A stretch of 64,000 bases of DNA from Paucibacter sp. TC2R-5 (GTDB lineage: Bacteria; Pseudomonadota; Gammaproteobacteria; Burkholderiales; Burkholderiaceae_C), in assembly GCF_025717605.1 (NCBI RefSeq), contig NZ_JAJIRQ010000005.1:248001-312000 (forward strand), given 5' to 3'. The translations under genes were made by a program, and so were the position numbers. The notes under the pieces are model-generated. The model saw only the letters and a list, made by a program, of their open reading frames with translations, was not told where the DNA came from and did not search any database. Shown here piece by piece: positions 1-12,130 of the stretch (positions are counted from its first letter, which is position 1; every line of letters starts with the position of its first letter).

Positions 1-768
1 AGTGCCGACGTCAAGTTTGAGCATGCCACCGGCTACAAGCAAGCCGCCAATCTGCGCAGTTATGACTCGCGCACCTATGAGGGCGCCTACATGGCCGGCG
101 TCATCGCCGGCAAGATGAGCAAGACCGGCACGCTGGGCGTGGTGGGCTCCATCCCCATCCCCGAGGTGATCCGCAATATCAACAGCTTCACGCTGGGCGC
201 GCAAAGCGTCAACCCTAAGACCGTGGTGAAAGTGGTGTGGGTGAATAAATGGTTTGACCCGCCACAAGAAACCGAAGCCGCGCAGACCTTGATCGACGGC
301 GGCGCCGATGTGCTGATGCAAAACACCGACTCCAGCGCGGTCTTGCAAACGGCCGAGAAGAACGGCAAATACGCCTTCGGCTGGGACTCCGACATGACCG
401 CCTACGGCCCCAAGGCTCATCTGGGATCGGCCGTGATCAACTGGGCGCCGTACTACATCGCCACCGTGCGAGAGGCCTTGGACGGCACCTGGGCGGCCGG
501 GCCGGGCAAGCATGCTTGGTGGGGCGTCAAGGAAGGCGCGATCGATATGGTGTCCATCGCCGAGGCCGTGCCGGCCGACACCCGCGCGCAGATCGACAAG
601 ATCAAGGCCGGGCTCAAAGACGGCACGTTTGCGATCTGGAAAGGCCCCATCGTCGGCCAAGACGGCAAAGAGCTGCTCAAGAAGGGCGAGCAGGCCGACG
701 ACAAATTCCTCTCTGGCGTCAATTTCTACGTCAAGGGTGTGGACAGCAAGATGCCGGGCGGGAAGTGA
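1..768 (+). CDS. BMP/PnrA-family ABC transporter substrate-binding protein (3' part)
   Basis: The frame is open from base 1 to a TGA at 766-768, so the 5' end lies outside the window; 255 residues are visible. The sequence has the BMP/Med family layout: the segment SRTYEGAYMAGVIAGKM, then TLGVVGSIPIPEV, then WVNKWFDPPQE, then GADVLMQNTDSSAV and FGWDSDMTAYGP. In this family such proteins bind nucleosides or related small molecules in the periplasm and feed an ABC importer. The partner permease and ATPase genes would have to lie to the left, because the downstream side is an integron. The family is clear; the substrate is not readable from the sequence. Confidence 0.9.
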   Translation, partial: SADVKFEHATGYKQAANLRSYDSRTYEGAYMAGVIAGKMSKTGTLGVVGSIPIPEVIRNINSFTLGAQSVNPKTVVKVVWVNKWFDPPQETEAAQTLIDGGADVLMQNTDSSAVLQTAEKNGKYAFGWDSDMTAYGPKAHLGSAVINWAPYYIATVREALDGTWAAGPGKHAWWGVKEGAIDMVSIAEAVPADTRAQIDKIKAGLKDGTFAIWKGPIVGQDGKELLKKGEQADDKFLSGVNFYVKGVDSKMPGGK

Positions 769-774
769 GTTAGC

Positions 775-805: not shown

Positions 806-850
806 GTCATTCAGCCATTCAATCAATCAATCAGTCTTTCAATCATTCAT

Positions 851-1039
851 TCAGAGTTGGTCCAAGGGGCTGCGCACCGCCCAGCCGCCCATGCGCAAGA
901 CATGGGTGTAAATCATGGTGGTGGACACATCCGCATGGCCCAGCAACTCTTGCACGGTGCGGATGTCGCTGCCGCCTTGCAGCAAATGGGTGGCGAAGCA
1001 GTGGCGCAGCGTGTGCGGGGTGGCTGGTTGCAAATGAAT
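851..1039 (-). pseudogene. intI: Integron integrase IntI, C-terminal remnant
   Basis: Reading from 1039 down to the stop at 853-851 gives about 62 residues including [40 protein letters not shown] and the terminal RSPLDQL. These match the end of integron integrases and contain the catalytic HxxR box, the second His (LLGH) and the nucleophilic Tyr (MIYTH). A full IntI has about 320-340 residues; everything before this point is missing, including the first catalytic Arg. An in-frame stop (1042-1040) lies directly upstream, and the only start-like codon is a TTG at 1033. The orientation, opposite to the cassettes, is that expected for intI. It cannot be active as it stands. Confidence 0.9.
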
Positions 1040-1173
1040 TCAATATTGACGGCTCCAAGGCGAGCAAATGCGGGTTTTCACTTGAGCTTTGTCGCTCAAT
1101 CGACGAGCTGCTTTTGCCGACCTGTCATTGCTGTATGAAGCTACAGCCTATGGCCTGCCAAGTCAATTTTCAA

Positions 1174-1194
1174 GGGGCTTTCGCCCGTTTTTTT
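1174..1194 (+). terminator. Short stem with T-run, weak terminator candidate
   Basis: GGGC, a TTTC loop and GCCC (1175-1186) are followed by a G and seven Ts. The stem is only 4 bp, so function is doubtful. The stretch 1040-1265 otherwise holds no ORF; it should contain the intI promoter, Pc and attI of an intact integron, but I see no convincing Pc promoter. Confidence 0.3.
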
Positions 1195-1255
1195 GCCGCA
1201 GATTTAGGGAGAAAGTTTGCGGGCGACAACGGATTTAACTGTCTCCCGACAACAC

Positions 1256-1262
1256 GCTAGGC
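1256..1262 (+). other. Candidate attI core or degenerate recombination site (GCTAGGC)
   Basis: The first cassette gene begins four bases after GCTAGGC, one base away from the GTTAGGC that ends the other sites, and it is followed by CCGC much as at later junctions. It sits where the attI-cassette junction must be. The upstream side does not form an attC palindrome, which favours an attI remnant over an attC. The middle T of the core is replaced. Confidence 0.4.
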
Positions 1263-1265
1263 CGC

Positions 1266-1685
1266 ATGAAGATGTCAAGCACCTCCGGTTACTCTGGAAC
1301 GCCGCTTTCGAAGAAGCTCGGCATCAAAGAGGCACATCGAGTGCTGCCCCTTGATGCGCCGAAGGAGTACGAAAGCCTTTTGGCCCCACTCCCGCCAGCC
1401 GTGGTGTTTGTCACTCAGCCCGACTCAATGGTTGATATCGCTCACGTCTTTGTCACCCAGAGAGACGAACTGGCAAAGGTCCTGAGTCACTTGCGCAAGA
1501 AGCTGAAATCCGACGCAGCACTGTGGATCTCCTGGCCGAAGAAGTCTGCCAAGGTTCCAACCACCATCACAGAAGACACCATCCGCGAGTTGGCGTTGCC
1601 ACTTGGATTCGTAGATATCAAAGTCTGCGCCGTCACGGAAATCTGGTCGGGGCTTAAGTTGGTAGTTCGCAAGGAGCTTCGCTGA
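1266..1685 (+). CDS. Cassette 1: DUF3052 family protein
   Basis: 139 residues. The N-terminal segment SGYSGTPLSKKLGIKEAHRV and the later WISWPKKSAK and EIWSGLKLVVRKE are the signature of DUF3052, a small soluble family of unknown function. The family usually starts close to SGYSGTP, so the ATG at 1272 is as plausible as 1266. It is the cassette next to the lost integrase, so in an intact integron it would be the most recently captured and best expressed gene. The family is clear and the function unknown. Confidence 0.8.
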   Translation: MKMSSTSGYSGTPLSKKLGIKEAHRVLPLDAPKEYESLLAPLPPAVVFVTQPDSMVDIAHVFVTQRDELAKVLSHLRKKLKSDAALWISWPKKSAKVPTTITEDTIRELALPLGFVDIKVCAVTEIWSGLKLVVRKELR

Positions 1686-1692
1686 GAATGCG

Positions 1693-1803
1693 GCCTAACC
1701 CTGCGTTCGAGCCGACTCGCAACGGCTGGTCTCTTCAGGCCCCCATTTCATTCTGGGCCTTCCGCGCCCAGCCGCCGCTCGCGACTCAACTTCGACGTTA
1801 GGC
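1693..1803 (+). repeat. attC1 (type B, 111 bp)
   Basis: Begins GCCTAAC and ends GTTAGGC. The interior has the type B sequence with GGCCC, a CATTTCATTCT loop and GGGCC. It ends cassette 1. Confidence 0.93.
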
Positions 1804-1806
1804 ACC

Positions 1807-2304
1807 ATGAATAGACGGATCTTCATCGTTGCATTGGGAGCAGCCCTGGCCAGCCCTGGCGCGAAGTGCGGGGAATCGGTCTACCTTGAGTCAATTCAAT
1901 GTGTCGGTGGCCGGTACGGACTTGTCTTGCCCAAGGACGTAAGACAGCTGAAGTCTCTTAGCAAACTACTCCGCGAGAGCGTCTCGCAAGTCGAGCACTG
2001 GGACGGCTACACCGCTACACGCAAGACACTTTTCTTTGATGGGCTTGAACTTGGGATCGCTGAGTTCTCGAATGATCCTGCGCGCGTAATCGTCACACAC
2101 GCGGAAGTTTCAAAGCCAAGTTGGAATCGCCTTAGCCCCTTCAAGCTAGGGCGGCCTGCAGCAGAAGCGCAGGCGCTCATTGGTGAAAGCGCCAAAGGCG
2201 ATGATGAGCTTAAGAACTCGTATGGCAGCGACAGCGACAGCGTGGATTTTCAAGCCGTTTCAGGAGTTGTAATCCGTGTCTCATACAGTTGCTACTCGGG
2301 ATGA
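1807..2304 (+). CDS. Cassette 2: exported protein of unknown function
   Basis: 165 residues starting three bases after attC1. The N-terminus MNRRIFIVALGAALASPG has a short positive end and a hydrophobic stretch, consistent with a Sec signal peptide. The mature part contains several Cys residues (AKCGES, SIQCVGG, SYSCYSG) and no motif I recognise. The alternation of short beta-like and loop segments suggests a small globular periplasmic protein. No function can be assigned. Confidence 0.7.
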   Translation: MNRRIFIVALGAALASPGAKCGESVYLESIQCVGGRYGLVLPKDVRQLKSLSKLLRESVSQVEHWDGYTATRKTLFFDGLELGIAEFSNDPARVIVTHAEVSKPSWNRLSPFKLGRPAAEAQALIGESAKGDDELKNSYGSDSDSVDFQAVSGVVIRVSYSCYSG

Positions 2305-2316
2305 GGGCGGCGTGGT

Positions 2317-2427
2317 GCCTAACCGGTTGCTCGAGTGGGCCTCCGCCAGCTGGCCGCGCTACGCTGCCTGTATATTTTCAGCTCCGCGCGGCCAGCTGGC
2401 TGCGGCCCCTCAGCTCGAACGTTAGCC
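2317..2427 (+). repeat. attC2 (type A, 111 bp)
   Basis: GCCTAAC to GTTAGCC. The type A interior has the inverted repeat CAGCTGGCCGCGC / GCGCGGCCAGCTG. Confidence 0.93.
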
Positions 2428-2459
2428 CGCACAGAAAACGCCTTTGCCGAGCCTGCCTG

Positions 2460-2834
2460 ATGAATCCAGAATACTTCGCCAAGCTTGAAAAGGAGCGCAC
2501 CCGCGCCATCGTGGCTCGTGACATGGCTACCGTTGAAGCGATGCATGCCCCCGAGTATGAGTTAGTCACGCCGGCCGGACGCGTCTTGCCCAGAGAACGC
2601 TACCTTGAGCTTATCGCGGAGGCTCCCTTCTACTCGGCGTGGGAACATGGGGCAATGCAAGTGCGTGTATCGCCAGGCATGGCAGCGGTCAAATACCAAG
2701 CGAAGCTCGCATTTCCAGAAGGTAAGGTCCTTGAGTGTTGGCACACGGACATCTATGAATTGCGTGGCTCGCTTTGGCAGGCAGTCTGGTCCCAGGCAAC
2801 CCAGCTTCCCGGCAGTGAAAGAAATGCGGGCTAA
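2460..2834 (+). CDS. Cassette 3: SnoaL/DUF4440-like NTF2-fold protein
   Basis: 124 residues from the ATG at 2460. The frame is open further upstream, but only because it runs through attC2. The pattern MNPEYFAKLEKERTRAIVARD, then YELVTPAGRVLPRERYLELI, then MAAVKYQAKLAF and WHTDIYELRGSLWQAVWSQATQ is that of the nuclear transport factor 2 fold (DUF4440/SnoaL-like), a cone-shaped domain that binds small molecules in very diverse enzymes. The substrate is unknown. The stop codon (TAA 2832-2834) is inside the core site of attC3. Confidence 0.75.
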   Translation: MNPEYFAKLEKERTRAIVARDMATVEAMHAPEYELVTPAGRVLPRERYLELIAEAPFYSAWEHGAMQVRVSPGMAAVKYQAKLAFPEGKVLECWHTDIYELRGSLWQAVWSQATQLPGSERNAG

Positions 2835-2939
2835 CCGGTCGCTCGAGTGGACCTCCGCCAGCTGGCCGCGCTGCGCTGCCTGTATATTTTCAGCTCCGCG
2901 CGGCCAGCTGGCTGCGGCCCCTCAGCTCGAACGTTAGCC
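2829..2939 (+). repeat. attC3 (type A, 111 bp)
   Basis: GGCTAAC to GTTAGCC with a perfect 13-bp inner inverted repeat. Its R'' box supplies the stop codon of cassette 3. Confidence 0.93.
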
Positions 2940-2946
2940 ATCAGAA

Positions 2947-3498
2947 ATGCTTCTTCGCGACCCTACTGCCAGTGATTACGAGGCCATCGCGCTATGGGTG
3001 CCGGATGCTGCGGCCGGGCTGCGTTGGGCTGGACCACGACTGCCATTCCCGTTTGCACCTCCGGACTTGCCGAGTTTGCTGGCTGTGCCAGGGGGCGGGG
3101 AATCGAGCTATTGCCTGATTGACGAATCCGGTAATCCCTGCGGCTTTGGTCAGCATTGGGTACTGCAGCCGGGGGCTGTACATCTTGGCAGAATCATCGT
3201 GGCTCCGGATGCCCGAGGTCGAGGGATCGGCCGCGTACTATGCCAGCGGCTGGTTCTTGCAGCGCTAAGCTCGACATCAGCAGAAGCTGTTACCTTGCGA
3301 GCGTACAGAGACAACCTTGCGGCCGTTGGGCTGTATTCGAGTCTTGGCTTCGCCGAGGTTGTTTCGCAATCAACGGAAGATGTCCTATTCATGAAACTGC
3401 CGGCTAACCAGTCGCTCAACCGGACCCTACACGGCGCCGCGCCTTCGGGCATCATTTCATTCTTGCCCTGCGGCACTTCGCCGTTCCAGGCCGGTTAG
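2947..3498 (+). CDS. Cassette 4: GNAT N-acetyltransferase
   Basis: 183 residues. The acetyl-CoA loop (motif A) reads IIVAPDARGRGIGRVLCQRLV and the closing segment reads RAYRDNLAAVGLYSSLGFAEV, both typical of GNAT enzymes, which transfer an acetyl group from acetyl-CoA to an amine. The acceptor is unknown. The protein proper ends near FMKLPA. Because the reading frame misses the TAA in the R'' box, translation continues through nearly all of attC4 and adds about 33 residues that are simply translated attC, ending at a TAG at 3496-3498. Confidence 0.88.
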   Translation: MLLRDPTASDYEAIALWVPDAAAGLRWAGPRLPFPFAPPDLPSLLAVPGGGESSYCLIDESGNPCGFGQHWVLQPGAVHLGRIIVAPDARGRGIGRVLCQRLVLAALSSTSAEAVTLRAYRDNLAAVGLYSSLGFAEVVSQSTEDVLFMKLPANQSLNRTLHGAAPSGIISFLPCGTSPFQAG

Positions 3499-3512
3499 CT
3501 CGAACGTTAGGC
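3402..3512 (+). repeat. attC4 (divergent, 111 bp)
   Basis: GGCTAAC to GTTAGGC. It has the same length as types A and B, but the interior is unrelated to either (a GGCGCCGCGCC segment and a CATCATTTCATTC loop). It overlaps the 3' end of the cassette 4 ORF. Confidence 0.9.
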
Positions 3513-3526
3513 GTCGCAAACACACC

Positions 3527-4072
3527 ATGCCTCAGATTGCCGCCGAGTTCATGAGATTCAGCGCACCCGACCCAGGTGCGCTGGAGCGCAGCATTAGCGA
3601 AACACGTGCCAAGCTGGCAATTGCTGTCCAGGCTGGTCAATCTCTAGCCATTGTTGATGCTGCCGCTGACCTGGGAAGCATGCTCACCACCGCGAGAATG
3701 GAGGTTGAAGCAGCACAACTGCTCGAGGAATTTCTGCCTCACGCAGAAGCGCACGCAATGCAAGAGGCTGCGGGTTGGTTCTGGAATGCATACGCTACGG
3801 CACTGCAGTACTGCGGGAGGCGAGAGCAAGCCGAGGCGCACTTCGCGAAGGCCATCGAGATAGCAACCGTGGGTGACTGGCGTCGACTCGAAGCGCTTGT
3901 TCTTCATCATTGGGGTCGGAGTCTTGCTGAGCAGACGCGCTTCGTCGATGCAGAGGCTCGAATTTCAAAAGCACTCGCCATCCGTGTTGAACTCAACATA
4001 CCGAATCAAGAGTCGTCACGGCGGGCTTTGGTCGAACTTTCGGCGCTGCGAGAAGCCAATGTTCACCCATAA
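3527..4072 (+). CDS. Cassette 5: tetratricopeptide-like helical protein
   Basis: 181 residues, almost wholly helical. The repeats WFWNAYATALQYCGRREQAEAHFAKAIEIA and LVLHHWGRSLAEQTRFVDAEARISKALAIR have TPR spacing (G/A at position 8, A at 20, and A/L at 27). Such proteins are scaffolds for protein-protein contacts. There is no signal peptide, so it is probably cytosolic, and the partner is unknown. It starts 14 bases after attC4. Confidence 0.75.
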   Translation: MPQIAAEFMRFSAPDPGALERSISETRAKLAIAVQAGQSLAIVDAAADLGSMLTTARMEVEAAQLLEEFLPHAEAHAMQEAAGWFWNAYATALQYCGRREQAEAHFAKAIEIATVGDWRRLEALVLHHWGRSLAEQTRFVDAEARISKALAIRVELNIPNQESSRRALVELSALREANVHP

Positions 4073-4084
4073 ACGCGTAGCGAC

Positions 4085-4195
4085 GCCTAACCGGTCGTTC
4101 GAGTGGACCTCCACCAGCTGGCCGCGCTACGCTGCCTGTACATTTTCAGCTCTGCGCGGCCAGCTGGCTCCGGCCCCTCAGCTTCGACGTTAGGC
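4085..4195 (+). repeat. attC5 (type A, 111 bp)
   Basis: GCCTAAC to GTTAGGC. Type A interior with a few substitutions in the loop and stem. Confidence 0.93.
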
Positions 4196-4204
4196 GCCCA
4201 ATCG

Positions 4205-4501
4205 ATGTTCGCTTGGATTCGACGGATCGGAAAAACCGGCGCGCCGCCGCCTCGAGAGGCATTGCTTAACCAAGGACTCAGTCTAGCGATGCAATGGGGC
4301 GATGACTGGTTGAAATCAATTCAAGGAAGACTTGCGCAGCGCTTTCCGGTGCTTTCTCGGGATCAGCTAACCCTTCTCTCGAGCGGACCAAAGCCGGCAA
4401 GGTACCCTGGCCGCGACACCGCAATGGATATCATCGGTCTCGCGGCCAGGGTGCCTTGCCGGCGCGGGCCGCTCGGCTCAAACGTTAGGCCGACGACATG
4501 A
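4205..4501 (+). CDS. Cassette 6: small protein of unknown function, reads through its attC
   Basis: 98 residues from the ATG at 4205. Residues 1-56 (MFAWIRRIGKTGAPPPREAL...VLSRDQLTLL) look like a small globular domain with a WGDDWLKSI helix. The rest (SSGPKPARYPGRD...) is translated attC6, and the stop TGA (4499-4501) overlaps the ATG of cassette 7. No family is recognised. The native stop may have been lost when the cassette formed, or the attC-encoded tail may be tolerated. Confidence 0.55.
   Translation: MFAWIRRIGKTGAPPPREALLNQGLSLAMQWGDDWLKSIQGRLAQRFPVLSRDQLTLLSSGPKPARYPGRDTAMDIIGLAARVPCRRGPLGSNVRPTT
4365..4490 (+). repeat. attC6 (126 bp, long near-perfect hairpin)
   Basis: AGCTAAC to GTTAGGC. 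The interior begins GCCGGCAAGG and returns as CCTTGCCGGC; together with the adjoining CCTGGCCGCGA / TCGCGGCCAGG it gives a stem of about 24 bp with a single mismatch. It is unlike types A and B, so this cassette probably came from another integron pool. Confidence 0.88.
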
Positions 4502-4908
4502 ATCTGAAGAATTGTCTTTTGCGAGCGCTCTTTGTCCTTGCGTGCAGCACTTCGCTTTCGGCGCACGCGGACTATGCTTGGGATCTTCTGAAGCGGCCCG
4601 AATTCAAATCAGCATATCTCAAGGTGCTCGGACCGAAAGCAAGCCAGTCCTGGATTGCAAAGTTGCTCGGTCCGAGTGAACAGGCAACTCGAACAACCAT
4701 TGGTGGCGAGGAATACATATTTGCCAATTCATGCAAGCCGCACGCTTGCGACACGGACAACTTGGCTATTGCTTTTGGCCTCGTGTCAAAGCAAGTGTTC
4801 GTTCTGTTGCATGAGGATTCAGGCACCAATGTGCTGTTCGGCGCACCGCCGGTCGCTGTCAAGGCCGAGATTGAGGCTTACTATTTAAAGAGCTTCGTTG
4901 CACGGTAG
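4498..4908 (+). CDS. Cassette 7: Ivy-family C-type lysozyme inhibitor
   Basis: 136 residues. The N-terminus MNLKNCLLRALFVLACSTSLSAHA is a Sec signal peptide. The mature part has the Ivy hallmark loop as CKPHAC (E. coli Ivy has CKPHDC), preceded by GEEYIFANS and followed by DNLAIAFG and KQVFVLLHE. In Ivy this disulfide-closed loop inserts its His into the active site of c-type lysozyme. The protein should act in the periplasm and protect peptidoglycan from host or predator lysozymes. The Asp-to-Ala change next to the His is a variation to note. Its ATG overlaps the stop of cassette 6. Confidence 0.82.
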   Translation: MNLKNCLLRALFVLACSTSLSAHADYAWDLLKRPEFKSAYLKVLGPKASQSWIAKLLGPSEQATRTTIGGEEYIFANSCKPHACDTDNLAIAFGLVSKQVFVLLHEDSGTNVLFGAPPVAVKAEIEAYYLKSFVAR

Positions 4909-5019
4909 GCCTAACCTAGCGCTCGAGCCGCCTCGCAACGGCTGGGAACTTCAGGCCCCCATTTCATTCTGGGCCTTCCGCGCCCAGGCGCCGCTCGCGG
5001 CTCAACTTCAACGTTCGGC
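4909..5019 (+). repeat. attC7 (type B, variant R' box)
   Basis: GCCTAAC to GTTCGGC. The A of the conserved GTTA is C here; the interior is type B. Confidence 0.9.
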
Positions 5020-5046
5020 CTCACCAAATCCAGTTTCCCCGGTTGC

Positions 5047-5075
5047 TTGCGCTGCTTATTTGTTGTAGCTACAAT
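5047..5075 (+). promoter_or_regulatory. Promoter of brnT-brnA
   Basis: TTGCGC (5047-5052), a 17-base spacer and TACAAT (5070-5075) form a good sigma-70 promoter. Transcription would start at about 5081-5083, on or next to the brnT ATG (5081), so the mRNA would be almost leaderless. Toxin-antitoxin cassettes usually carry their own promoter, unlike most cassettes. Confidence 0.7.
5063..5074. promoter_or_regulatory. Palindromic operator over the brnTA -10 box
   Basis: TTGTAGCTACAA is a perfect 12-bp palindrome that covers most of the -10 hexamer. In known BrnT/BrnA systems the antitoxin or the complex represses its own promoter by binding an inverted repeat there, so this is the likely operator. 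Confidence 0.65.
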
Positions 5076-5080
5076 TAAGC

Positions 5081-5350
5081 ATGCGGATTGAATTCGACCT
5101 AGCCAAAGATGCGTCCAATCAAGAGAAGCACGGCCTGTCACTTGCGATGGCATCAACGCTCGACTGGGACGAAGCTCTGGTGTGGGTTGATGATCGGTAC
5201 GAATACGGTGAGTTGCGCATGATCGCTCTCGCACCGGATACGGGAATCCTGTACTACGTGGCGTTTGTGGATCGTGATGATGCCCGCAGGATCATCAGCT
5301 TGCGCAAGGCCAATCGACGCGAGGTGAAGCACTATGTCCAAAGTTATTAA
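5081..5350 (+). CDS. brnT: Cassette 8a: BrnT-family toxin
   Basis: 89 residues, normal for BrnT. The N-terminal IEFDLAKDASNQEKHGLSL, the central YGELRMIALA and the C-terminal DDARRIISLRKANRREVKHY match the family. BrnT is a RelE-fold ribonuclease that stops translation until bound by BrnA. It lies directly under its own promoter, with brnA overlapping its end by 17 bases; this toxin-first order is the normal one for brnTA. Confidence 0.92.
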   Translation: MRIEFDLAKDASNQEKHGLSLAMASTLDWDEALVWVDDRYEYGELRMIALAPDTGILYYVAFVDRDDARRIISLRKANRREVKHYVQSY

Positions 5351-5633
5351 GCGGCCAGCGGTTGTCATGCCGACCCTGGCAGAAGACAAAGCCATTACGG
5401 TTGCCGCCAAGGCCGACCCAGATGCACAGCCCCTAACCCCGAAGCAGTTGCAAGCCATGGTTCCGCTCAAAGCGGTGCGCGGTAGGCCCAAGTCGGAAAA
5501 CAAGAAGTTGCTTGTATCTGTCCGGTACAGCCCTGAGGTTGTGGCCTACTTCAAGTCAACAGGCGAAGGCTGGCAGTCGCGGATGGATGGCGTGTTGCAG
5601 CAGTACGTAGCCCGTCATTCGCGCAGGGCATGA
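5334..5633 (+). CDS. brnA: Cassette 8b: BrnA-family antitoxin
   Basis: 99 residues. The C-terminal part KLLVSVRYSPEVVAYFKSTGEGWQSRMDGVLQQYV is the BrnA ribbon-helix-helix domain, which dimerises and binds DNA. The N-terminal part is the toxin-contacting extension, with GRPKSENKK as the linker. It overlaps brnT, so the two are translationally coupled. In arrays such pairs stabilise the cassette run against loss. Confidence 0.92.
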   Translation: MSKVIKRPAVVMPTLAEDKAITVAAKADPDAQPLTPKQLQAMVPLKAVRGRPKSENKKLLVSVRYSPEVVAYFKSTGEGWQSRMDGVLQQYVARHSRRA

Positions 5634-5634
5634 G

Positions 5635-5745
5635 GCCGAACCAGTCGTTCGAGCCGACTCGCATCGGCTGGTCACTTCAGGCCGCCATTTCATTCTTGGC
5701 CTTCCGCGCCCAGCCGCCGCTCGCGGCTCAAGTTCGACGTTAGAC
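5635..5745 (+). repeat. attC8 (type B, variant ends)
   Basis: GCCGAAC to GTTAGAC, both boxes with one change from consensus. Type B interior. Confidence 0.9.
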
Positions 5746-5748
5746 CTC

Positions 5749-6198
5749 ATGGGAACTAGGCTTCGAGAACTTCATACCGACGAGTATTTGGCCGTATGCG
5801 CCTGGGCGATCGCGGAGGAGTGGCCGGCGCTAGTCAAGGGTAATTTGCTTACCTACGAGGATTTTCCAAAGATCCTCAACCAGCCGGGTCACCTGAGTTT
5901 TGCCATGAGTGAAGACGAATCGCCAGTCATCGGTTTCGGGCAGATTTGGTCATCCCCGAACGGAAAAACAAACCTTGTTCGCATCCTGGTCAATCCTGCT
6001 TTCCGCGGCAAAGGCTTGGGAAAACGCCTTTGCTCCTTGCTGCTCAAAGAGGCTTTGTGCTTGCCAAACGTCAAGGAGGTGCGGTTGCGCGTGCACAGAG
6101 ACAATATTCCAGCAGTCGCGGTCTATCGATCCCTTGGGTTTCGCGAGCTGGAGGCGGAGAGCCATGCAACTGTCCTCGCGATGGCGTATGAGGCCTAA
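5749..6198 (+). CDS. Cassette 9: GNAT N-acetyltransferase
   Basis: 149 residues. Motif A reads ILVNPAFRGKGLGKRLCSLLL and motif B reads VHRDNIPAVAVYRSLGFRELE, so this is a typical GNAT enzyme. PVIGFGQIW forms the preceding beta strand. It resembles cassette 4 in the GFGQ strand and the RDNxxAVxxYxSLGF end, suggesting the same subfamily, while the rest differs. The acceptor is unknown. It ends in the TAA of the attC9 R'' box. Confidence 0.88.
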   Translation: MGTRLRELHTDEYLAVCAWAIAEEWPALVKGNLLTYEDFPKILNQPGHLSFAMSEDESPVIGFGQIWSSPNGKTNLVRILVNPAFRGKGLGKRLCSLLLKEALCLPNVKEVRLRVHRDNIPAVAVYRSLGFRELEAESHATVLAMAYEA

Positions 6199-6303
6199 GC
6201 GGTCGTTCGAGTCGACTCGCAACGGCTGGCCACTCCAGGCCCCCATTGCATTCTGGGCCTTCCGCGCCCAGCCGCCGCTCGCGGCTCGACTTCGACGTTA
6301 GGC
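6193..6303 (+). repeat. attC9 (type B, R'' GCCTAAG)
   Basis: GCCTAAG to GTTAGGC, with the last base of R'' changed. Type B interior. Supplies the stop codon of cassette 9. Confidence 0.9.
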
Positions 6304-6350
6304 CGCGCTAAAAGCCGCAGCATCAACCCACTCACGCGAGGAGAAACACA

Positions 6351-6818
6351 ATGACCAGTTCTATTCGTACTTGCCTCTGGTTCCGTGACGGTCGCGGTCG
6401 TGAGGCCGCAGAGTTTTACTGCGCTCTAATTCCGGGAAGCCGGATCGAGGGGACATACGAAATCGGCGGAGAAGGTGGCGCTTCCTGGCTGATCGACTTC
6501 ACGCTTGGCGGGGTGCCGTATCAGATACTCGATGCAGGACCGATGTTCACCCTATCCGAGGCCGCGTCCATTTCGGTCGAGACGGACGATCAGGCAGAGA
6601 CCGATAGGCTTTGGGCAGCGCTAAGCACGAACGGTGGCGAGGAAAGTCACTGCGGCTGGCTGAAGGATCGCTATGGGGTGTCGTGGCAGGTTTTCCCGAG
6701 GCGGCTGACAGAATTGACATTGAGGGCCGAGAAGAATGTGGCTGCGAAGGCAATCGCGGCGATGATGAAGCAAAAGAAGATCGACATCGCCGAAATCGAA
6801 GCGGCAGTTCGTGCCTGA
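6351..6818 (+). CDS. Cassette 10: PhnB-like VOC-fold protein
   Basis: 155 residues with a GAGGAGA ribosome site ahead of the ATG. The segments RTCLWFRDGRGREAAEFYCALIPGS, then FTLGGVPYQILDAGPMF, SISVETDDQAETDRLWAAL and CGWLKDRYGVSWQVFPRRL are those of the PhnB / '3-demethylubiquinone-9 3-methyltransferase' branch of the vicinal-oxygen-chelate superfamily. The C-terminal tail (AIAAMMKQKKIDIAEIEAA) is also usual. The enzymes of this branch are mostly uncharacterised despite the methyltransferase name. Confidence 0.85.
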   Translation: MTSSIRTCLWFRDGRGREAAEFYCALIPGSRIEGTYEIGGEGGASWLIDFTLGGVPYQILDAGPMFTLSEAASISVETDDQAETDRLWAALSTNGGEESHCGWLKDRYGVSWQVFPRRLTELTLRAEKNVAAKAIAAMMKQKKIDIAEIEAAVRA

Positions 6819-6827
6819 TAGTTCACG

Positions 6828-6885
6828 GCCCAACAATTCATTCCGGCCGCCCGCCTTCGGCGGCGGCTGAATTCAAACGTTAGCC
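6828..6885 (+). repeat. attC10 (short, 58 bp)
   Basis: GCCCAAC to GTTAGCC. AATTCATTCCGGCCG...CGGCTGAATTC folds as a compact hairpin around a TTCG loop. It is the short '59-base-element' type common on mobile integrons and in environmental cassettes, not the local 111-bp type. Confidence 0.9.
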
Positions 6886-6901
6886 CGCAACAAATACCTC
6901 A

Positions 6902-7342
6902 ATGCTCGTTCGCCCTATGCTCCCGCAAGATTCGGCAGCAGTTTCCGAACTCCTCCCGCACCTCGGCTACCAGGCCAATCGAGGCGAAGTTGCTGACCGT
7001 CTTTCGGCCATGTTGGCGTGGCCCGACAACGTCGCCTTCGTGGCAGAACTTGAAGGGCAAATTGTTGGCCATTGCCAAGTTCACGGCGTTCGCTTGCTTG
7101 CAAGCAACGGGTATGCCGAAGTGGCTGCATTGGTTGTTCATCCCAAATGCCAACGCAAAGGTGTCGGCGCTGCCCTGGTTCAAGATGCTGAGTCTTGGGC
7201 TGCGCAGCAGGGATATGAGAGGCTACGCCTACGGTCTGGCGTTCACCGAGAAGATGCTCATCACTTCTATATCGCGCTTGGCTTCTCAAAATCTCGGGCT
7301 AGTTACGCATTTGAGCGCAGTCTTGGTACGAATGCGGGCTAA
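6902..7342 (+). CDS. Cassette 11: GNAT N-acetyltransferase
   Basis: 146 residues. The N-terminus MLVRPMLPQDSAAVSELLPHLGY and motif A LVVHPKCQRKGVGAALVQDAESWA followed by HREDAHHFYIALGF identify a GNAT enzyme of the aminoglycoside-acetyltransferase-like type. In this protein the acetyl-CoA loop is Q-R-K-G-V-G. The substrate is unknown. The stop TAA (7340-7342) is the R'' box of attC11. Confidence 0.87.
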   Translation: MLVRPMLPQDSAAVSELLPHLGYQANRGEVADRLSAMLAWPDNVAFVAELEGQIVGHCQVHGVRLLASNGYAEVAALVVHPKCQRKGVGAALVQDAESWAAQQGYERLRLRSGVHREDAHHFYIALGFSKSRASYAFERSLGTNAG

Positions 7343-7447
7343 CCAGTCGCTCGAGTGGGCCTCCGCCAGCTGGCCGCGCTGCGCTGCCTGGATATTTTCA
7401 GCTCCGAGCTACCAGCTGGCTGCGGCCCTTCAGCTTCAACGTTAGGC
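7337..7447 (+). repeat. attC11 (type A, 111 bp)
   Basis: GGCTAAC to GTTAGGC. The right arm of the inner stem is altered (CGAGCTACCAGCTG for CGCGCGGCCAGCTG). Confidence 0.92.
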
Positions 7448-7457
7448 CTCGAAACCC

Positions 7458-7772
7458 ATGATACGTCCACTTGAATCGTTGCCATACGCCGAATTAGCTC
7501 GCGAAGAGTTCGCTCGTGAGCAGTTCCCTGTGGACGAACCGCCCGGCCGATATGCTGCGGCAAACGCCCACTGTTGGGTTTCATTCTCCTTTGCGGACTA
7601 CCGTTACTCCGATGATCGCCTCACCATGTGGGTACAGGAACTGGGCGATATCTTGTTTGAACGCAACGGGGCGCCGACCATCGAGCAGCTGCGTCAGATG
7701 TATCTATCTCCCGCAGAACTGCAAAAGGTCCAGGCTACCTTGGCTAGGCAGCAACGCGAAGGCGACCTTTGA
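7458..7772 (+). CDS. Cassette 12: small protein of unknown function
   Basis: 104 residues, acidic, without signal peptide or membrane segment. It begins MIRPLESLPYAELAREEFAREQFP, has an aromatic central part (AHCWVSFSFADYRYSDDRLTMWVQELG) and a helical end (TIEQLRQMYLSPAELQKVQATLARQ). No family is recognised. It starts 10 bases after attC11. The ORF ends 46 bases before attC12, leaving a short untranslated 3' stretch. Confidence 0.6.
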   Translation: MIRPLESLPYAELAREEFAREQFPVDEPPGRYAAANAHCWVSFSFADYRYSDDRLTMWVQELGDILFERNGAPTIEQLRQMYLSPAELQKVQATLARQQREGDL

Positions 7773-7818
7773 ATCTCGGCAGCGTCACTTGCACCCAGAC
7801 CACCACCCGCTCGGCGAG

Positions 7819-7929
7819 GCCTGTCCGGTTGCTCGAGTGGACCTCCGCCAGCTGGTCGCGCTACGCTGCTTGTATGTTTTCAGCTCCGCGCGGCCAGCTG
7901 GCTGCGGCCGTTCAGCTTCAACGTTAGGC
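7819..7929 (+). repeat. attC12 (type A, degenerate R'')
   Basis: GCCTGTC to GTTAGGC. The R'' box has lost the AAC, so pairing with R' is weakened. The rest is type A. Confidence 0.88.
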
Positions 7930-7949
7930 GTCGCCGCTCGTCAGAACCA

Positions 7950-8336
7950 ATGACTCCATACCGCTACGAATCCGGCCGTCGGATCCTTTGGGTGGATGAT
8001 CGCCCAAACGACAACCGACCGATTGCTGCCCATCTTGAGCGACGAGGATTTCACATTTCCTATGCGCTTTCAACCGGACTGGCCTTGGTCCTACTGTCAA
8101 AGAACAAATACTTTGCCGTGATCTCAGACATGGGCCGACCGGAAGGGATCAGAGAAGGGTTTCACTTGTTGGACAGTATGCGCGGGCGGGACGATCAAAC
8201 GCCCGTAATCTTCTACGCATCCCTTGACGCACCGGCGCTGCGAGAGGAAGCAGCGCTGCACGACGCTCAAGGCTGTACAAACAACTCTGCCGAGCTAATT
8301 CAGTTGATTGAAAAACTCGGTAACTGCCCCAGATGA
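7950..8336 (+). CDS. Cassette 13: stand-alone receiver-like domain
   Basis: 128 residues forming a CheY-type fold with no output domain. The acidic pair is present (ILWVDD, residues 16-17), as is a phosphoacceptor Asp (ISDMGRPEG, Asp60) and the Ser/Thr position (VIFYAS). The conserved Lys after beta 5 is absent: that region reads GCTNNSAEL. The DMGRPEG and GCTN features look like a receiver subfamily that I recall, but whose role is unknown to me. No kinase gene accompanies it. Confidence 0.75.
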   Translation: MTPYRYESGRRILWVDDRPNDNRPIAAHLERRGFHISYALSTGLALVLLSKNKYFAVISDMGRPEGIREGFHLLDSMRGRDDQTPVIFYASLDAPALREEAALHDAQGCTNNSAELIQLIEKLGNCPR

Positions 8337-8379
8337 GGCCGATATCAAGTACGGGTAGTCGGGGCCTGGCACCAGCGAC

Positions 8380-8489
8380 ACCTAACCCTCCGATCGAGTG
8401 GGACTCCGCCAGCTGGCCGCGCTATGCTGCCTGTATATTTTAGCTCCGCGCGGCCAACTGGTTCCGGCCCCTCAGCTTCAACGTTAGGC
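8380..8489 (+). repeat. attC13 (type A, 110 bp)
   Basis: ACCTAAC to GTTAGGC. Type A with one base missing in the loop. Confidence 0.9.
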
Positions 8490-8518
8490 GTCACAACACA
8501 CGCTGCACCAATGCTCAT

Positions 8519-9007
8519 ATGAAGATCAGTTTAAGAAAGATCACGCTTGAGAACTTAGACGATGTCGTCGATCTTCGGTTGCTTGATCACCAATACGAGT
8601 ACCTCGCGAGCAACTCCTATTCAATAGCCGAGGCCAGCCTGAATACATCACTTCGCACCCATGCTATCTACGGTGACGAGCGGGTGATCGGCTTTGTCTT
8701 GTACTGCACGCCAGATGAAAGTGATAGCGAACCGGGCACATATGAAATTTGGCGATTGATGATCGATGCGGGATTTCAAGGGCGCGGGTACGGTCGGCAG
8801 GCTCTAGAGTTCGTCCTTCGGGAGATATGCGCAGACGACACTGCGCGGAACATCCACATTTGCTATAAACCAGACAACGAGGCGGCGAAACGTGTTTACT
8901 CAAGCCTTGGATTTGAAGAAGTCGGTATCGAGCCTGAAACTGGTGAGATGGATGCTGTGGTGTCGCCCTTGCGCATCAGATGGTCGAGGCCAGCAGGTGA
9001 GGCCTAA
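8519..9007 (+). CDS. Cassette 14: GNAT N-acetyltransferase (spermidine-acetyltransferase-like)
   Basis: 162 residues. It starts ISLRKITLENLDDVVDLRL and has motif A as LMIDAGFQGRGYGRQALEFVL and the end as PDNEAAKRVYSSLGFEEVG. This pattern, including YEIWRLMID, resembles the BltD/spermine-spermidine acetyltransferase branch of GNATs, so a polyamine acceptor is possible but unproven. Its stop (TAA 9005-9007) is in the R'' box of attC14. Confidence 0.85.
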   Translation: MKISLRKITLENLDDVVDLRLLDHQYEYLASNSYSIAEASLNTSLRTHAIYGDERVIGFVLYCTPDESDSEPGTYEIWRLMIDAGFQGRGYGRQALEFVLREICADDTARNIHICYKPDNEAAKRVYSSLGFEEVGIEPETGEMDAVVSPLRIRWSRPAGEA

Positions 9008-9112
9008 CCGGTCTTTCGAGCCGACTCGCAACGGCAGGTCTCTTCAAGCCCCTATTTCATTCTGGGCCTTCCGTGCCCAGCCGCCGCTAGCGGCTCAAAT
9101 TCGACGTTAGCC
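9002..9112 (+). repeat. attC14 (type B, 111 bp)
   Basis: GCCTAAC to GTTAGCC, type B interior with several substitutions. Only four bases separate it from the next attC. Confidence 0.9.
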
Positions 9113-9116
9113 CATC

Positions 9117-9215
9117 GCTCAACCGGGCCTGCAACGTCACACCGGCTGCGGGCCTCATTTAATTCTGACCCTTCGGTGCCTTGCCGCCGCGGGCAAGTTG
9201 GCTCAAACGTTAGGC
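9117..9215 (+). repeat. attC15: site of a gene-less cassette
   Basis: GCTCAAC to GTTAGGC, with a divergent interior (CATTTAATTCTGACCC loop, GCCGCGGGCAAG arm). It follows attC14 directly, so the cassette bounded by the two cleavage points consists of an attC alone, about 102 bp, with no ORF. Confidence 0.78.
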
Positions 9216-9218
9216 GCC

Positions 9219-9785
9219 ATGGAAACCACCTTTCTCGAAGACGTCACCGCGAATCAGGCGAATCGAGCCATCTTGTCTCGCTGGCAACGCCTTGGGCTAC
9301 CGAACTCGTGGCTCGTTGCAGGCTGCTTGTTTCAGACCATCTGGAATATAAAGTCGTCGAGGCAAGCCGGTGAGAACATCAAGGACTACGACATCTTTTA
9401 CTTCGACACAGGTGACCTGACCAAGGAGAGCGAGGAGCAGGCCCAGCGGCACGTGGATTCGGTACTCATGGACCTTGGTATTACTGTTGAAGTTGCCAAC
9501 CAAGCCCGCGTTCATCTCTGGTACCCCGACTTCTTTGGGCAACCTTACACCCCACTCAGCTCGGCCGAGGAGGGCATCAAGCGCTTCCTCGTTAAGGAAA
9601 CCTGTGTTGGTGTCAGGCCCAGGGAGTGCCACGCTCCCTATGGACTAGCTGGCGTATACGCGGGCACGCTCACAGCCAACCCTATGGTTCCGCAAACGGA
9701 TCTCTTCGTTCGCAAGGTTGCAAGCTACAGGCAACGCTGGCCTTGGCTAACCGTGAACGAGCGGGAGGTAGAGCATGGCGCCTAA
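9219..9785 (+). CDS. Cassette 16: nucleotidyltransferase family protein (NTP_transf_6)
   Basis: 188 residues from the ATG at 9219, four bases after attC15. WLVAGCLFQTIWNIKS, then IKDYDIFYFDTGDLT, VEVANQARVHLWYPDFFG and HAPYGLAGVYAGTLTANP follow the NTP_transf_6 family, a branch of the nucleotidyltransferase fold with a DYDIFYFD metal-binding motif. Its physiological substrate is unknown. The stop codon (TAA 9783-9785) is in the R'' box of the truncated attC16. Confidence 0.85.
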   Translation: METTFLEDVTANQANRAILSRWQRLGLPNSWLVAGCLFQTIWNIKSSRQAGENIKDYDIFYFDTGDLTKESEEQAQRHVDSVLMDLGITVEVANQARVHLWYPDFFGQPYTPLSSAEEGIKRFLVKETCVGVRPRECHAPYGLAGVYAGTLTANPMVPQTDLFVRKVASYRQRWPWLTVNEREVEHGA

Positions 9786-9826
9786 CCGTTCGCTCGAGTG
9801 GCCCTCCGCCAGCTCAAATGTGAGGC
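9780..9826 (+). repeat. attC16 (internally deleted, 47 bp)
   Basis: It begins like a type A site (GCCTAACCGTTCGCTCGAG) but jumps after CCTCCGCCAGCTC to AAATGTGAGGC. The hairpin arms and loop, about 64 bp, are missing and the R' box is GTGAGGC. It is probably no longer recombinogenic, which would lock cassettes 16 and 17 together. Confidence 0.8.
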
Positions 9827-9830
9827 ATCC

Positions 9831-10307
9831 ATGAAGAGCCTTGTCATTCGAGATGTCGACCCGCAAGGCGCAGATGCCTTGAGCTTGCTTAACGAGGCAT
9901 CGGTTGACGCACGCGCTTTGTATCCGGAACTATTTGCCGGCGCCACCAAATCCGCCACAAACGAACCCCTTTCTGAGCGCGGCGTTTACGTCGTTGCATA
10001 CATAGACGGTTGCCCGCTCGCTTGCGGATCAGTGCGCCAACTCAGTCTGACGGATGCCGAGCTCCGGCGGATCTATGTCCATCGCGAGCACCGGCGCCAG
10101 GGTTTGGCTCGCGCAGTGCTCTTGCATCTCGTGGGCGAAGCCAAGCGGCTTGGCTACATTCGGCTAGTCCTCGAAACCGGCAGTAAGCAGCTGCCAGCGA
10201 TGCTTCTCTATGAGTCGATGGAATTCAAACGTATTCCCCCATTCGGCGAGTACGCCAACGACCCAACCAGTGTTTGCTATGAGCGGCTGCTTGACGCTGA
10301 TGCCTAA
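9831..10307 (+). CDS. Cassette 17: GNAT N-acetyltransferase
   Basis: 158 residues from the ATG at 9831, four bases after the attC16 remnant. Motif A reads IYVHREHRRQGLARAVLLHLVGEA and is followed by LVLETGSKQLPAMLLYESMEF, a GNAT end in which Ala replaces the usual second Gly of the acetyl-CoA loop. GVYVVAYIDGCPLACGSVRQL is the central beta hairpin. The acceptor is unknown. The stop TAA lies in the attC17 R'' box. Confidence 0.87.
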   Translation: MKSLVIRDVDPQGADALSLLNEASVDARALYPELFAGATKSATNEPLSERGVYVVAYIDGCPLACGSVRQLSLTDAELRRIYVHREHRRQGLARAVLLHLVGEAKRLGYIRLVLETGSKQLPAMLLYESMEFKRIPPFGEYANDPTSVCYERLLDADA

Positions 10308-10412
10308 GCTGGTGCTCGAATGGACCTCCGCCAACTGGCCGCGCGAGCCTGCCTGTATATTTTTAGCTCCGCGCGGCCAACTGGCTGTGGACCCTCGGCT
10401 TCAACTTTAGGC
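10302..10412 (+). repeat. attC17 (type A, both boxes altered)
   Basis: GCCTAAG to TTTAGGC. The first G of GTTAGGC is T and the last C of R'' is G. The inner stem is intact. Confidence 0.88.
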
Positions 10413-10416
10413 CTGC

Positions 10417-10803
10417 ATGAAGTCGCTTCTCGCGTTTGGCGTCGCCCTTCAAATTTCCTCTGCGTACGCGCAGGGCGTCGAGCCCATGCCATGTGTGGAC
10501 GCAGCGAATACCGTTGAGAAGAATTTGTGCTTGGGCAGAGAGGTGGAGGTATTGGATAAAGCCATTTCTGCTCAGGTCAGTCGAGTTGACGCCGTTTTGC
10601 GCAAGCGGGACGCTGATGAACCAGTGGTTCGACTCGAACCGGCCTTTGCATCGTCGCAAGTCAAGTGGCGGCAGTTTCGAGACGCCGAATGCAGCTTTAG
10701 AAGCCTCTCATTCGGCAGTGGAACGGGCGCGACGGCGGAACATGCATTCTGCAAAATGGAGCATGGTCGCCTAAGGTTGAGCCACCTCCAAGGGTTGCAG
10801 TGA
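10417..10803 (+). CDS. Cassette 18: DUF1311/LprI-like exported protein
   Basis: 128 residues. MKSLLAFGVALQISSAYAQ is a signal peptide. The mature part has the DUF1311 pattern: MPCVDAANTVEKNLC near the N-terminus, EVLDKAISAQV, then SSQVKWRQFRDAECSF and a last Cys (HAFCKMEHGRLRL). The four Cys residues are positioned to form two disulfides. In mycobacteria the related LprI inhibits lysozyme, so together with cassette 7 this may be a second periplasmic lysozyme-inhibitor cassette. That activity is inference from the family. Confidence 0.78.
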   Translation: MKSLLAFGVALQISSAYAQGVEPMPCVDAANTVEKNLCLGREVEVLDKAISAQVSRVDAVLRKRDADEPVVRLEPAFASSQVKWRQFRDAECSFRSLSFGSGTGATAEHAFCKMEHGRLRLSHLQGLQ

Positions 10804-10834
10804 AAACAGTATTCGCACGCTGTTGCCGTTGCCG

Positions 10835-10945
10835 GCCTAACCTGGCACTCGAGTGGACCTCCGCCAGCTGCCTGCGCTACGCTGCCTGTATATTTTCAGC
10901 TCCGCGCGGCCAGCTGGGTGCGATCACTCAGCTTCGACGTTAGGC
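10835..10945 (+). repeat. attC18 (type A, 111 bp)
   Basis: GCCTAAC to GTTAGGC, with small changes in the left stem arm (CAGCTGCCTGCGC). Confidence 0.92.
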
Positions 10946-10977
10946 CGCGCAGGGCCAGTTCTCTCCGTCCCCCGCCA

Positions 10978-11436
10978 ATGAAAATCACAGTTGTCACCCT
11001 CGCTGTCGCCGCGTCATCCATAGCAGCCCAGAGCCTACCGCCTCCATCACGGACGGTTTATAAATGCGAGGAGGGCAAGAATGTCCACTACTCTGATTCC
11101 CCCTGCCTCGGTGGAAAGAAGGTTGATGTGGCGCCAACAAGTGGAATCAACAAGTCAACTGGTCAAGAACGAATCGGCCATGACGTACAACGCGAGAAGC
11201 ACAACGAGCTAATGGCGGATGCGCTTCGACCCATCATCAACGAGACGCCTGAGCAAAGAGCAACGCGTCACAAACGCTTCAATCTGGTGCCATCGGCCAA
11301 AGCCGATTGCGCAAGATTGGATAACTTGATTCCGAAACTTGAAGGGCAGGAACGTTCGGCAGCCCCTCAAACGATTTCAACAGTCCAGCGAGAGCTGCTC
11401 GCCGCGAGAGAAAAATTCCACAATCTGAGGTGCTGA
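10978..11436 (+). CDS. Cassette 19: DUF4124-domain periplasmic protein
   Basis: 152 residues from the ATG at 10978. MKITVVTLAVAASSIAAQS is a signal peptide. Directly after it comes TVYKCEEGKNVHYSDSPCLGGKKVDV, the DUF4124 motif (YKC...G...YSD.PC), common in betaproteobacterial periplasmic proteins of unknown function. The rest is helical and charged, ending VQRELLAAREKFHNLRC. DUF4124 genes are usually chromosomal, so its presence in a cassette is worth noting. Confidence 0.82.
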   Translation: MKITVVTLAVAASSIAAQSLPPPSRTVYKCEEGKNVHYSDSPCLGGKKVDVAPTSGINKSTGQERIGHDVQREKHNELMADALRPIINETPEQRATRHKRFNLVPSAKADCARLDNLIPKLEGQERSAAPQTISTVQRELLAAREKFHNLRC

Positions 11437-11441
11437 GTGCG

Positions 11442-11506
11442 GTTTAACCAGTCTCTCGAGCGGCCTTCCGCCACCTGGCTGTGGCCCCTCAGCTCGAACC
11501 TTAGGC
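11442..11506 (+). repeat. attC19 (shortened type A, 65 bp)
   Basis: GTTTAAC to CTTAGGC. It keeps the outer type A ends (CAGTCTCTCGAGCGGCC, then GGCTGTGGCCCCTCAGCTCGAAC) but lacks about 46 bp of the middle. The R' box has lost its first G. Confidence 0.85.
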
Positions 11507-11522
11507 ATCTCATGGAGGATCT

Positions 11523-11924
11523 ATGACTAACCAAGTTGAGATGATTGGCCAGATCGCCATCACCGTGAGCGATGTCGAGGCATCCGTTGCTTACTACCGG
11601 GATGTCCTCGGCCTGAAGTTCTTGTTCAATGCTGGGCCAGGTTTGGCCTTTCTATCTGACGGATCGATTCGAATCATGCTCACCACACCACAAGGGTCTG
11701 GGGCAATTGGAGCGAATTCAATTCTCTATTTCAAAACGACCGATATAGAGAGTACCCATGCCGCAATAGTTGCCCGTGGTTCAGTGTCTGAAAGGCCGCC
11801 ACAGTTCGTCTCAAAAATGCCTGATCATGATTTATGGATGGGCTTCCTCCGCGACCCTGATGGCAATTTGGTCGCCCTCATGGAAGAGAAGCGTTCTGGC
11901 TCAGAGGCGAGGACAGTCGCTTAG
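11523..11924 (+). CDS. Cassette 20: glyoxalase/bleomycin-resistance-like VOC protein
   Basis: 133 residues with a GGAGG ribosome site just before the ATG. IGQIAITVSDVEASVAYYRDVLGLKFLF is the opening of a vicinal-oxygen-chelate domain; ILYFKTTDIESTHAAIVARG and LWMGFLRDPDGNLVALME complete it. The DPDGN turn and the closing Glu are the usual metal-site neighbours. Members include glyoxalase I, dioxygenases and drug-binding proteins; the substrate here is unknown. It is the last cassette of the array. Confidence 0.87.
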   Translation: MTNQVEMIGQIAITVSDVEASVAYYRDVLGLKFLFNAGPGLAFLSDGSIRIMLTTPQGSGAIGANSILYFKTTDIESTHAAIVARGSVSERPPQFVSKMPDHDLWMGFLRDPDGNLVALMEEKRSGSEARTVA

Positions 11925-11939
11925 CTCAAACGTTGAGTC
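11925..11939 (+). repeat. Terminal attC half-site
   Basis: GCTCAAACGTTGAGTC at the end of cassette 20 looks like the right-hand L'-R' end of an attC (compare GCTCAAACGTTAGGC of attC6 and attC15). No left half is present. It marks the worn distal end of the array. Confidence 0.6.
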
Positions 11940-12051: not shown

Positions 12052-12130
12052 CCATACAATCGGCTTCTAGCAGCGGGCAAACAGTCAGCTTCCACTGCTG
12101 CTCATGCCGCTGCGCGGGGAGATCTATACG

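Follow-up and report, generated by a model that had tools for sequence, protein, structure and literature searches.

A cassette array beside a disrupted integron integrase gene in Paucibacter, with an intact integron elsewhere in the same genome

What becomes of a chromosomal cassette array when its integrase gene is destroyed is the question raised by one locus of a Paucibacter sp. genome (G000), in which the remains of an integron integrase gene (intI) stand beside a row of cassettes with their attC sites. The locus is located in a stretch of 64 kb, here called the window (G000:C41:248001-312000), and positions given without a contig refer to it. Comparisons were made within a set of 18 genomes including G000, labelled Paucibacter after their named members. 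It is highly probable that the locus was a Paucibacter chromosomal integron that lost intI through a single deletion of 860 bp, and that it is now a cluster of attC sites lacking integron-integrases (CALIN), which would be open to action in trans by the integrase (IntI) encoded on contig C42 of the same genome.

The minus strand of 851-1033 matches positions 257-315 of the integron integrase profile TIGR02249 (length 315 positions, cut-off 265 bits) with an E of 7.6e-31 and 107.6 bits, and scores lower with the XerD (79 bits) and XerC (76.5 bits) models. A sequence-only reading had described the integrase as reduced to its last 60 codons or so with an in-frame stop directly upstream; the tail is an IntI tail and the next in-frame stop is found at 1040-1042, but about ten 5' codons also survive (Table 1). 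The full-length gene that this reading suggested looking for in close relatives is present in G007 (G007:C240:7142-8086, minus strand), at the same locus about 75 bp past the gene for the BMP-type protein (G007:C240:5881-7068), in the same orientation and with 95% identity to the remnant over 60 residues. Window 846-1029 aligns with the 3' end of this gene at 91% DNA identity, and 1010-1267 aligns with its 5' end and leader (positions 4159-4416 of the fetched G007 locus, L067) at 77%, with 1010-1027 common to both alignments. In a base-by-base overlay the window follows the left register up to 1029 and the right register from 1030, and the 860 bp that are missing relative to G007 are not a multiple of three, so that the two ends are out of frame; a TTG is found in the window at the position of the G007 ATG. 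The arms of the repeat at the junction are alike at 15 of 18 bases in G007, with GGCTGG common to both. These alignments show the loss to be one internal deletion and not a gradual erosion from one end, and slippage between the repeat arms may have been the mechanism. The deletion between the arms of this imperfect 18-bp repeat destroyed intI and shifted its frame while the leader, attI and 19 attC sites stayed in place, the crossover triplet of attI being changed too.

That the truncation is an artefact of assembly is very unlikely. Repeated attC sites do break assemblies, and several arrays and intI pieces of the relatives end with their contigs (pieces such as two in G008 and one in G001 may be assembly breaks), but the junction is located inside a contig of 450 kb, at a repeat that is diverged and non-identical, and the neighbouring attI core is changed as well. 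This core is GTTAGGC in G007 and GCTAGGC in the window, with the crossover triplet GTT replaced by GCT. A motif search of the 16 other intI loci of the genus found ACAACACG followed by the core in five, all five with GTT (reading GTTA), and the change is best taken to have arisen in G000. Over the last 177 coding bases (59 codons, 58 and the stop) the remnant shows 14 synonymous changes and one nonsynonymous change relative to G007, where a neutral simulation with as many substitutions gives about 10.6 amino-acid changes and none of 5000 runs gave three or fewer. This suggests that most of the divergence arose while intI was under selection, with a loose bound as there are 15 changes only, and because of the excess of synonymous changes the deletion is best placed late; intI was thus probably lost late.

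No Rfam model called the window attC sites, three matches being far below the gathering scores, and since Rfam gave no usable attC model a covariance model (R1) was built from 18 attC sites of the C42 array only, none from the window. A hand-made attC finder missed several sites, and R1 was used instead. At a listing threshold of E ≤ 1 it gives 34 matches in the window, 19 on the plus strand, 14 weaker ones on the minus strand where these palindromes lie, and a single questionable minus-strand match outside the array (32830-32923, E 0.12). All the plus-strand sites fall within 1693-11506, the worst with an E of 0.0031, and the array that had been proposed from palindromes is thereby confirmed with a model from another array. 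Folded as single-stranded DNA, six attC sites (four from the window and two from C42) beat all of 200 shuffles, with z from -3.7 to -9.9. The sites fall mainly into two families of 111 bp, A and B, whose consensus sequences were built from 27 and 18 of the 67 sites used from outside G000, and R1 matches at E ≤ 0.01 are found in all 18 genomes with 150 candidates scored per genome. Like those of a complete integron, the R'' boxes pair with the 5' end of their own cassette, in 13 of the 19 cassettes without a mismatch at the four variable bases (permutation p 0.002). An intact intI at the array and an attI with the GTT core, which a complete integron should also have, are absent. With 19 sites in 9.8 kb, adjoined by a frame-shifted integrase remnant only (by the profile matches and the G007 overlay), the array has the two or more clustered attC sites without a functional integrase that characterize a CALIN.

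The sequence-only reading had concluded that the integrase was lost and an integrase-less cluster left behind. This applies to the locus, where the integrase is destroyed, but not to the cell or the genome, since C42 carries an intact intI with at least 25 attC sites (150 candidates scored; 18 of these 25 trained R1) of the same two 111-bp families. An intact intI elsewhere in the genome is what that reading had itself named as refuting a loss of function. Its product has 355 residues and matches TIGR02249 at C42:199546-200490 with 473 bits. Its residues 38-350 align with the solved structure of IntI 2a3v, and the Arg, His-x-x-Arg, His and Tyr positions are present in this alignment. The search for intI in G000 with Phage_integrase gave 11 places, among them the window remnant, the intact C42 IntI, one XerD by profile and one XerC-like gene by reading.

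Because of the shared attC families the C42 IntI could act on the window sites, and with this intI intact in the same genome the window array is a CALIN to which an integrase is potentially available in trans. The array would no longer be able to capture cassettes through an integrase of its own. The C42 IntI could fold and cut the 14 of 19 attC sites in which both conserved core triplets are kept and excise cassettes, which could then move into the C42 array, and the window array would in function be a CALIN acting as a slowly decaying, one-way store. For this trans part only, there is a substantial possibility, although we lean away from it, that the array is fully dead, an ordinary decaying gene cluster whose attC sites the C42 IntI never meets or recognizes. 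A core triplet is changed in five of the 19 sites, two sites are clearly shortened (9780-9826 and 11442-11506), and no preferential sharing with C42 is seen; on the other side stand the 14 sites with both triplets, the strong folding of all four window sites that were folded, and their membership of the C42 families.

The two arrays differ in state. Core triplet pairs are intact in 25 of 25 sites of C42 against 14 of 19 in the window (Fisher p 0.011), and a perfect own-match of the R'' box is found in 24 of 25 against 13 of 19 (Fisher p 0.032). Identity to a consensus of other genomes, drawn from a set of 68 sites of other arrays (a subset of those found), was measured for 111-bp sites only, which keeps 13 of the 19 window sites and 23 of the 25 C42 sites, and was computed with and without attC 4, which fits neither family. 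The mean is 0.895 in the window (0.924 without attC 4) and 0.946 in C42, with p 0.015 and 0.030. Along the window array the identity falls, with rho -0.71 (p 0.009) without attC 4 and -0.52 (p 0.07) with it, and there is no trend along C42 (rho -0.12, p 0.60).

When all array DNA was searched against 43 fetched loci, two window cassettes were found to have close copies elsewhere. Compared without masking, the GNAT cassette at 6876-7345 matches a cassette next to the second intI of G007 with 95% identity over the full length between core sites, and the LprI cassette at 10399-10796 is 94.7% identical to a C42 cassette gene, starting at the core site and ending short of the attC. Only these two cassettes were followed through the whole genus: the protein of the former is found in G000 and G007 only (E ≤ 1e-30), and the nearest copy of the latter is in C42, with weaker copies (52-66%) in G010, G014 and G016. 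A cassette pool common to the genus seems to feed both arrays.

Some of these results weigh against the interpretation that we favour. Only one window cassette has a close copy in C42, and the arrays differ little in attC identity. For nine window attC sites of 111 bp, assigned to type A or B through a short motif in a 150-row alignment, the best match in C42 never beat that in other species (equal for two, lower for seven), a weak test as the other-species set is larger and few sites were compared. The integrase also seems to have been lost recently, so that some of the decay of the attC sites may be older than the deletion and need not be caused by it.

The C42 integron is located within a lineage-specific region of 33.5 kb (C42:182580-216078). 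In G009 and G002 only about 3 kb separate the flanks of this region, and no piece above 150 bp (shorter ones were dropped) matched the region between. In G009 these 3 kb contain, by reading, LysR-type, cupin-like and MFS-type genes. The region carries Tn7-like genes, namely TnsB-, TniB/TnsC- and two TniQ-type genes and a TnsA-like gene just under the Pfam cut-off, and TnsB relatives (E ≤ 1e-20) are found in four of the 18 genomes, G000 included. A search for transposon ends around the region found no TGT-type inverted repeat, and 14 exact inverted 10-mer matches were taken as chance. The region also encodes an NTPase-like protein of 1547 residues (by reading). The last cassette of the C42 array (L009 3017-4220) contains an LprI gene and then another gene, with no attC detected between the two, apparently because loss of that attC has joined two cassettes into one.

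How resident the disrupted integron is can be judged from its flanks. The BMP-type gene on the left has one match in each of 17 of the 18 genomes, and an intI match adjoins it in two of these, G000 and G007; one of the 17 contigs (G016) ends less than 0.7 kb past the gene. A search with the left-flank protein gave named relatives including Paucibacter sp. B2R-40 and Y2R2-4, and no intI was found beside the gene in 80 named loci for which up to 10 kb of flanking DNA was covered, ten of which end less than 1.5 kb after it. The description of the integron as sedentary, which should mean a conserved chromosomal place across the lineage, is therefore weak. G009 has no array here, and its alpha/beta hydrolase gene is located about 0.8 kb from the BMP gene. 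The BMP DNA groups G007 with G009 (94.8%), while the right flank puts G000 closer to G009 (86.5 against 83.5%), and because of this conflict in species order gain and loss of the integron cannot be polarised. At the matching site of G009 (G009:C12, L068 3746-4236) the 0.8 kb hold a PhnB-like gene preceded by a core-like GTTAGAG, perhaps a last cassette. The array might also never have been a resident integron but have been seeded at a secondary site by an integrase acting in trans. CALINs away from an integrase are reported for Xanthomonas (PMC12444791), and the IntI model sees no integron here in 15 of the 17 genomes with the left-flank gene, but such an origin is contradicted by G007, which has a complete intI with its leader and attI at this place, and the leader, attI and both intI ends are still present in the window, making seeding extremely improbable.

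An intI above the TIGR02249 cut-off is found in 13 of the 18 genomes, and some others are disrupted. In G009:C5 (L157 4155-4651) an intI of the C42 type has lost 571 bp internally and out of frame, beside attC sites. The ends that remain share 98.5-99% identity with the C42 IntI, so that the C42-type integron occurs in another species with nearly identical IntI ends, and since shared genes differ at the DNA level by about 10% or more, lateral transfer is suggested. Another C42-type intI, in G013:C32 (L160 ~6620-6902), keeps the leader, about 15 codons and the tail beside attC sites, with about 0.8 kb lost. A tail of 28 codons (E 2e-5) abutting a lone attC in G000:C34 (L165 8848-9037) is a minimal integron relic; the tails in G014:C4 and G006:C11 have no R1 match in the 12 kb fetched, and partial genes with the front only are found in G009:C48, G006:C28, G012:C44 and G015:C167.

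Two wider interpretations of these lesions were considered, and the odds of both were lowered when the partial genes that do not fit were counted in. That resident Paucibacter integrons are repeatedly disarmed by intI deletions sparing attI, leader and array, with incoming C42-type integrons keeping the genus-wide cassette pool moving, is unlikely. It is equally doubtful that the deletions were selected, the loss of intI in cis freezing a useful array and keeping the leader when a second integrase is in the cell. The remnants in G000 C41, G009 C5 and G013 C32 do each lack the middle of the gene but retain its front and tail, beside attC sites, and all three genomes have another intI above the cut-off; with such an intI in 13 of 18 genomes, however, three of three is unsurprising. 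The remnants were found by their pieces and are a biased set, the other partial genes have the tail only (G000 C34, G014 C4, G006 C11) or the front only (four loci), and a simple scan found no sigma-70-like site in the leader, neither in window 760-1300 nor in L067 4000-4450, and so no candidate for the Pc promoter that a complete integron has.

The cargo of the array is ordinary. Of the 19 cassette proteins that were scanned, 16 have a Pfam match (E ≤ 0.01), in one case slightly below the family cut-off, and these comprise five GNAT, BrnT/BrnA, Ivy, LprI, glyoxalase, PhnB-like, nucleotidyltransferase, receiver, TPR, DUF4440 and DUF3052 proteins (Table 1). The BrnT/BrnA toxin-antitoxin pair (5081-5633) constitutes a two-gene cassette; toxin-antitoxin cassettes are often said to stabilise large arrays.

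Table 1. Features of the disrupted integron and its flanks, in window positions. Scores in bits are those of the attC model R1.
Feature	Position	Strand	Evidence
BMP-family ABC transporter substrate-binding protein gene, 3' part (left flank; starts before window)	1..768	+	open reading frame; family name by reading of sequence
intI 3' remnant, ~60 codons	851..1039	-	TIGR02249; 91% DNA identity to full intI of G007
Deletion junction, imperfect 18-bp repeat, 860 bp lost	1010..1027		register comparison with L067 (G007 locus)
intI 5' remnant, ~10 codons	1028..1058	-	alignment with L067
intI leader and attI; core 1256-1262, GCTAGGC	1059..1262		alignment with G007, motif search
Cassette gene, DUF3052 (just under Pfam cut-off)	1266..1685	+	Pfam
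attC 1, type B	1693..1803	+	113.4 bits
Cassette gene, no Pfam match	1807..2304	+	Pfam scan
attC 2, type A	2317..2427	+	120.5 bits
Cassette gene, DUF4440	2460..2834	+	Pfam
attC 3, type A	2829..2939	+	122.2 bits
Cassette gene, GNAT acetyltransferase (to attC 4 start; frame continues to 3498)	2947..3402	+	open reading frame, Pfam
attC 4, neither type	3402..3512	+	65.4 bits
Cassette gene, TPR	3527..4072	+	Pfam
attC 5, type A	4085..4195	+	124.3 bits
Cassette 6 reading frame, open on through attC 6; outside Pfam-scanned set	4205..4380	+	open reading frame
attC 6, 126 bp	4365..4490	+	53.8 bits
Cassette gene, Ivy-type lysozyme inhibitor	4498..4908	+	Pfam
attC 7, type B	4909..5019	+	83.3 bits
Cassette gene, BrnT toxin (toxin-antitoxin pair)	5081..5350	+	Pfam
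Cassette gene, BrnA antitoxin	5334..5633	+	Pfam
attC 8, type B	5635..5745	+	98.3 bits
Cassette gene, GNAT acetyltransferase	5749..6198	+	Pfam
attC 9, type B, R'' box changed	6193..6303	+	104.5 bits
Cassette gene, 3-dmu-9_3-mt (PhnB-like)	6351..6818	+	Pfam
attC 10, 58 bp	6828..6885	+	28.3 bits
Cassette gene, GNAT	6902..7342	+	Pfam
attC 11, type A	7337..7447	+	102.3 bits
Cassette gene, no Pfam match	7458..7772	+	Pfam scan
attC 12, type A, R'' box changed	7819..7929	+	106.8 bits
Cassette gene, response-regulator receiver	7950..8336	+	Pfam
attC 13, 110 bp	8380..8489	+	102.9 bits
Cassette gene, GNAT	8519..9007	+	Pfam
attC 14, type B	9002..9112	+	100.5 bits
attC 15, cassette without gene	9117..9215	+	20.1 bits
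Cassette gene, nucleotidyltransferase (NTP_transf_6)	9219..9785	+	Pfam
attC 16, shortened, R' box changed	9780..9826	+	24.0 bits
Cassette gene, GNAT	9831..10307	+	Pfam
attC 17, type A, both core triplets changed	10302..10412	+	81.7 bits
Cassette gene, LprI domain	10417..10803	+	Pfam
attC 18, type A	10835..10945	+	97.6 bits
Cassette gene, no Pfam match	10978..11436	+	Pfam scan
attC 19, shortened, R' box changed	11442..11506	+	39.9 bits
Last gene, glyoxalase family	11523..11924	+	Pfam
Final core-like GTTGAGT, attC left half missing; taken as array right edge	11932..11938	+	sequence
Alpha/beta hydrolase gene, right flank	12104..13597	+	Pfam, alignment

The literature already covers CALINs, intI pseudogenes, genomes with several intI and mobilisation in trans, and the decay of the integrase with retention of the array is known in other genera, so that the window locus is a well-preserved new example of a known phenomenon. 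The papers retrieved for Paucibacter and integrons each mention the genus once. Here an array deprived of its integrase can be set beside the intact locus of a sister genome and an apparently functional integron whose attC sites are of the same families. The combination offers a natural test case of whether orphan arrays can be kept alive by an integrase encoded at another place in the genome. In PMC9024848 a CALIN is defined, following IntegronFinder, as a cluster of at least two attC sites without an integron integrase, which is also the state of the window array with no working integrase adjoining; it has 19 sites against an average of almost six, and the integrase relic, leader and attI are still in place. 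For Xanthomonas, PMC12444791 describes repeated lineage-specific inactivation of integrons with intI deleted or truncated and the arrays kept, much as intI is truncated and the array kept here, and states that CALINs can be mobilised in trans by a functional IntI. The Xanthomonas intI is located downstream of ilvD with few exceptions, whereas the intact platform in G000 is another integron, in a lineage-specific region with Tn7-like genes. Genome surveys (PMC2426708, PMC3108266) predict a third to more than 40% of intI genes to be inactive and find more than one intI in over one fifth of integron-bearing lineages; unlike for the intI pseudogenes of those surveys, the repeat at the junction and the intact sister locus are both directly visible here, and this is what the locus adds.

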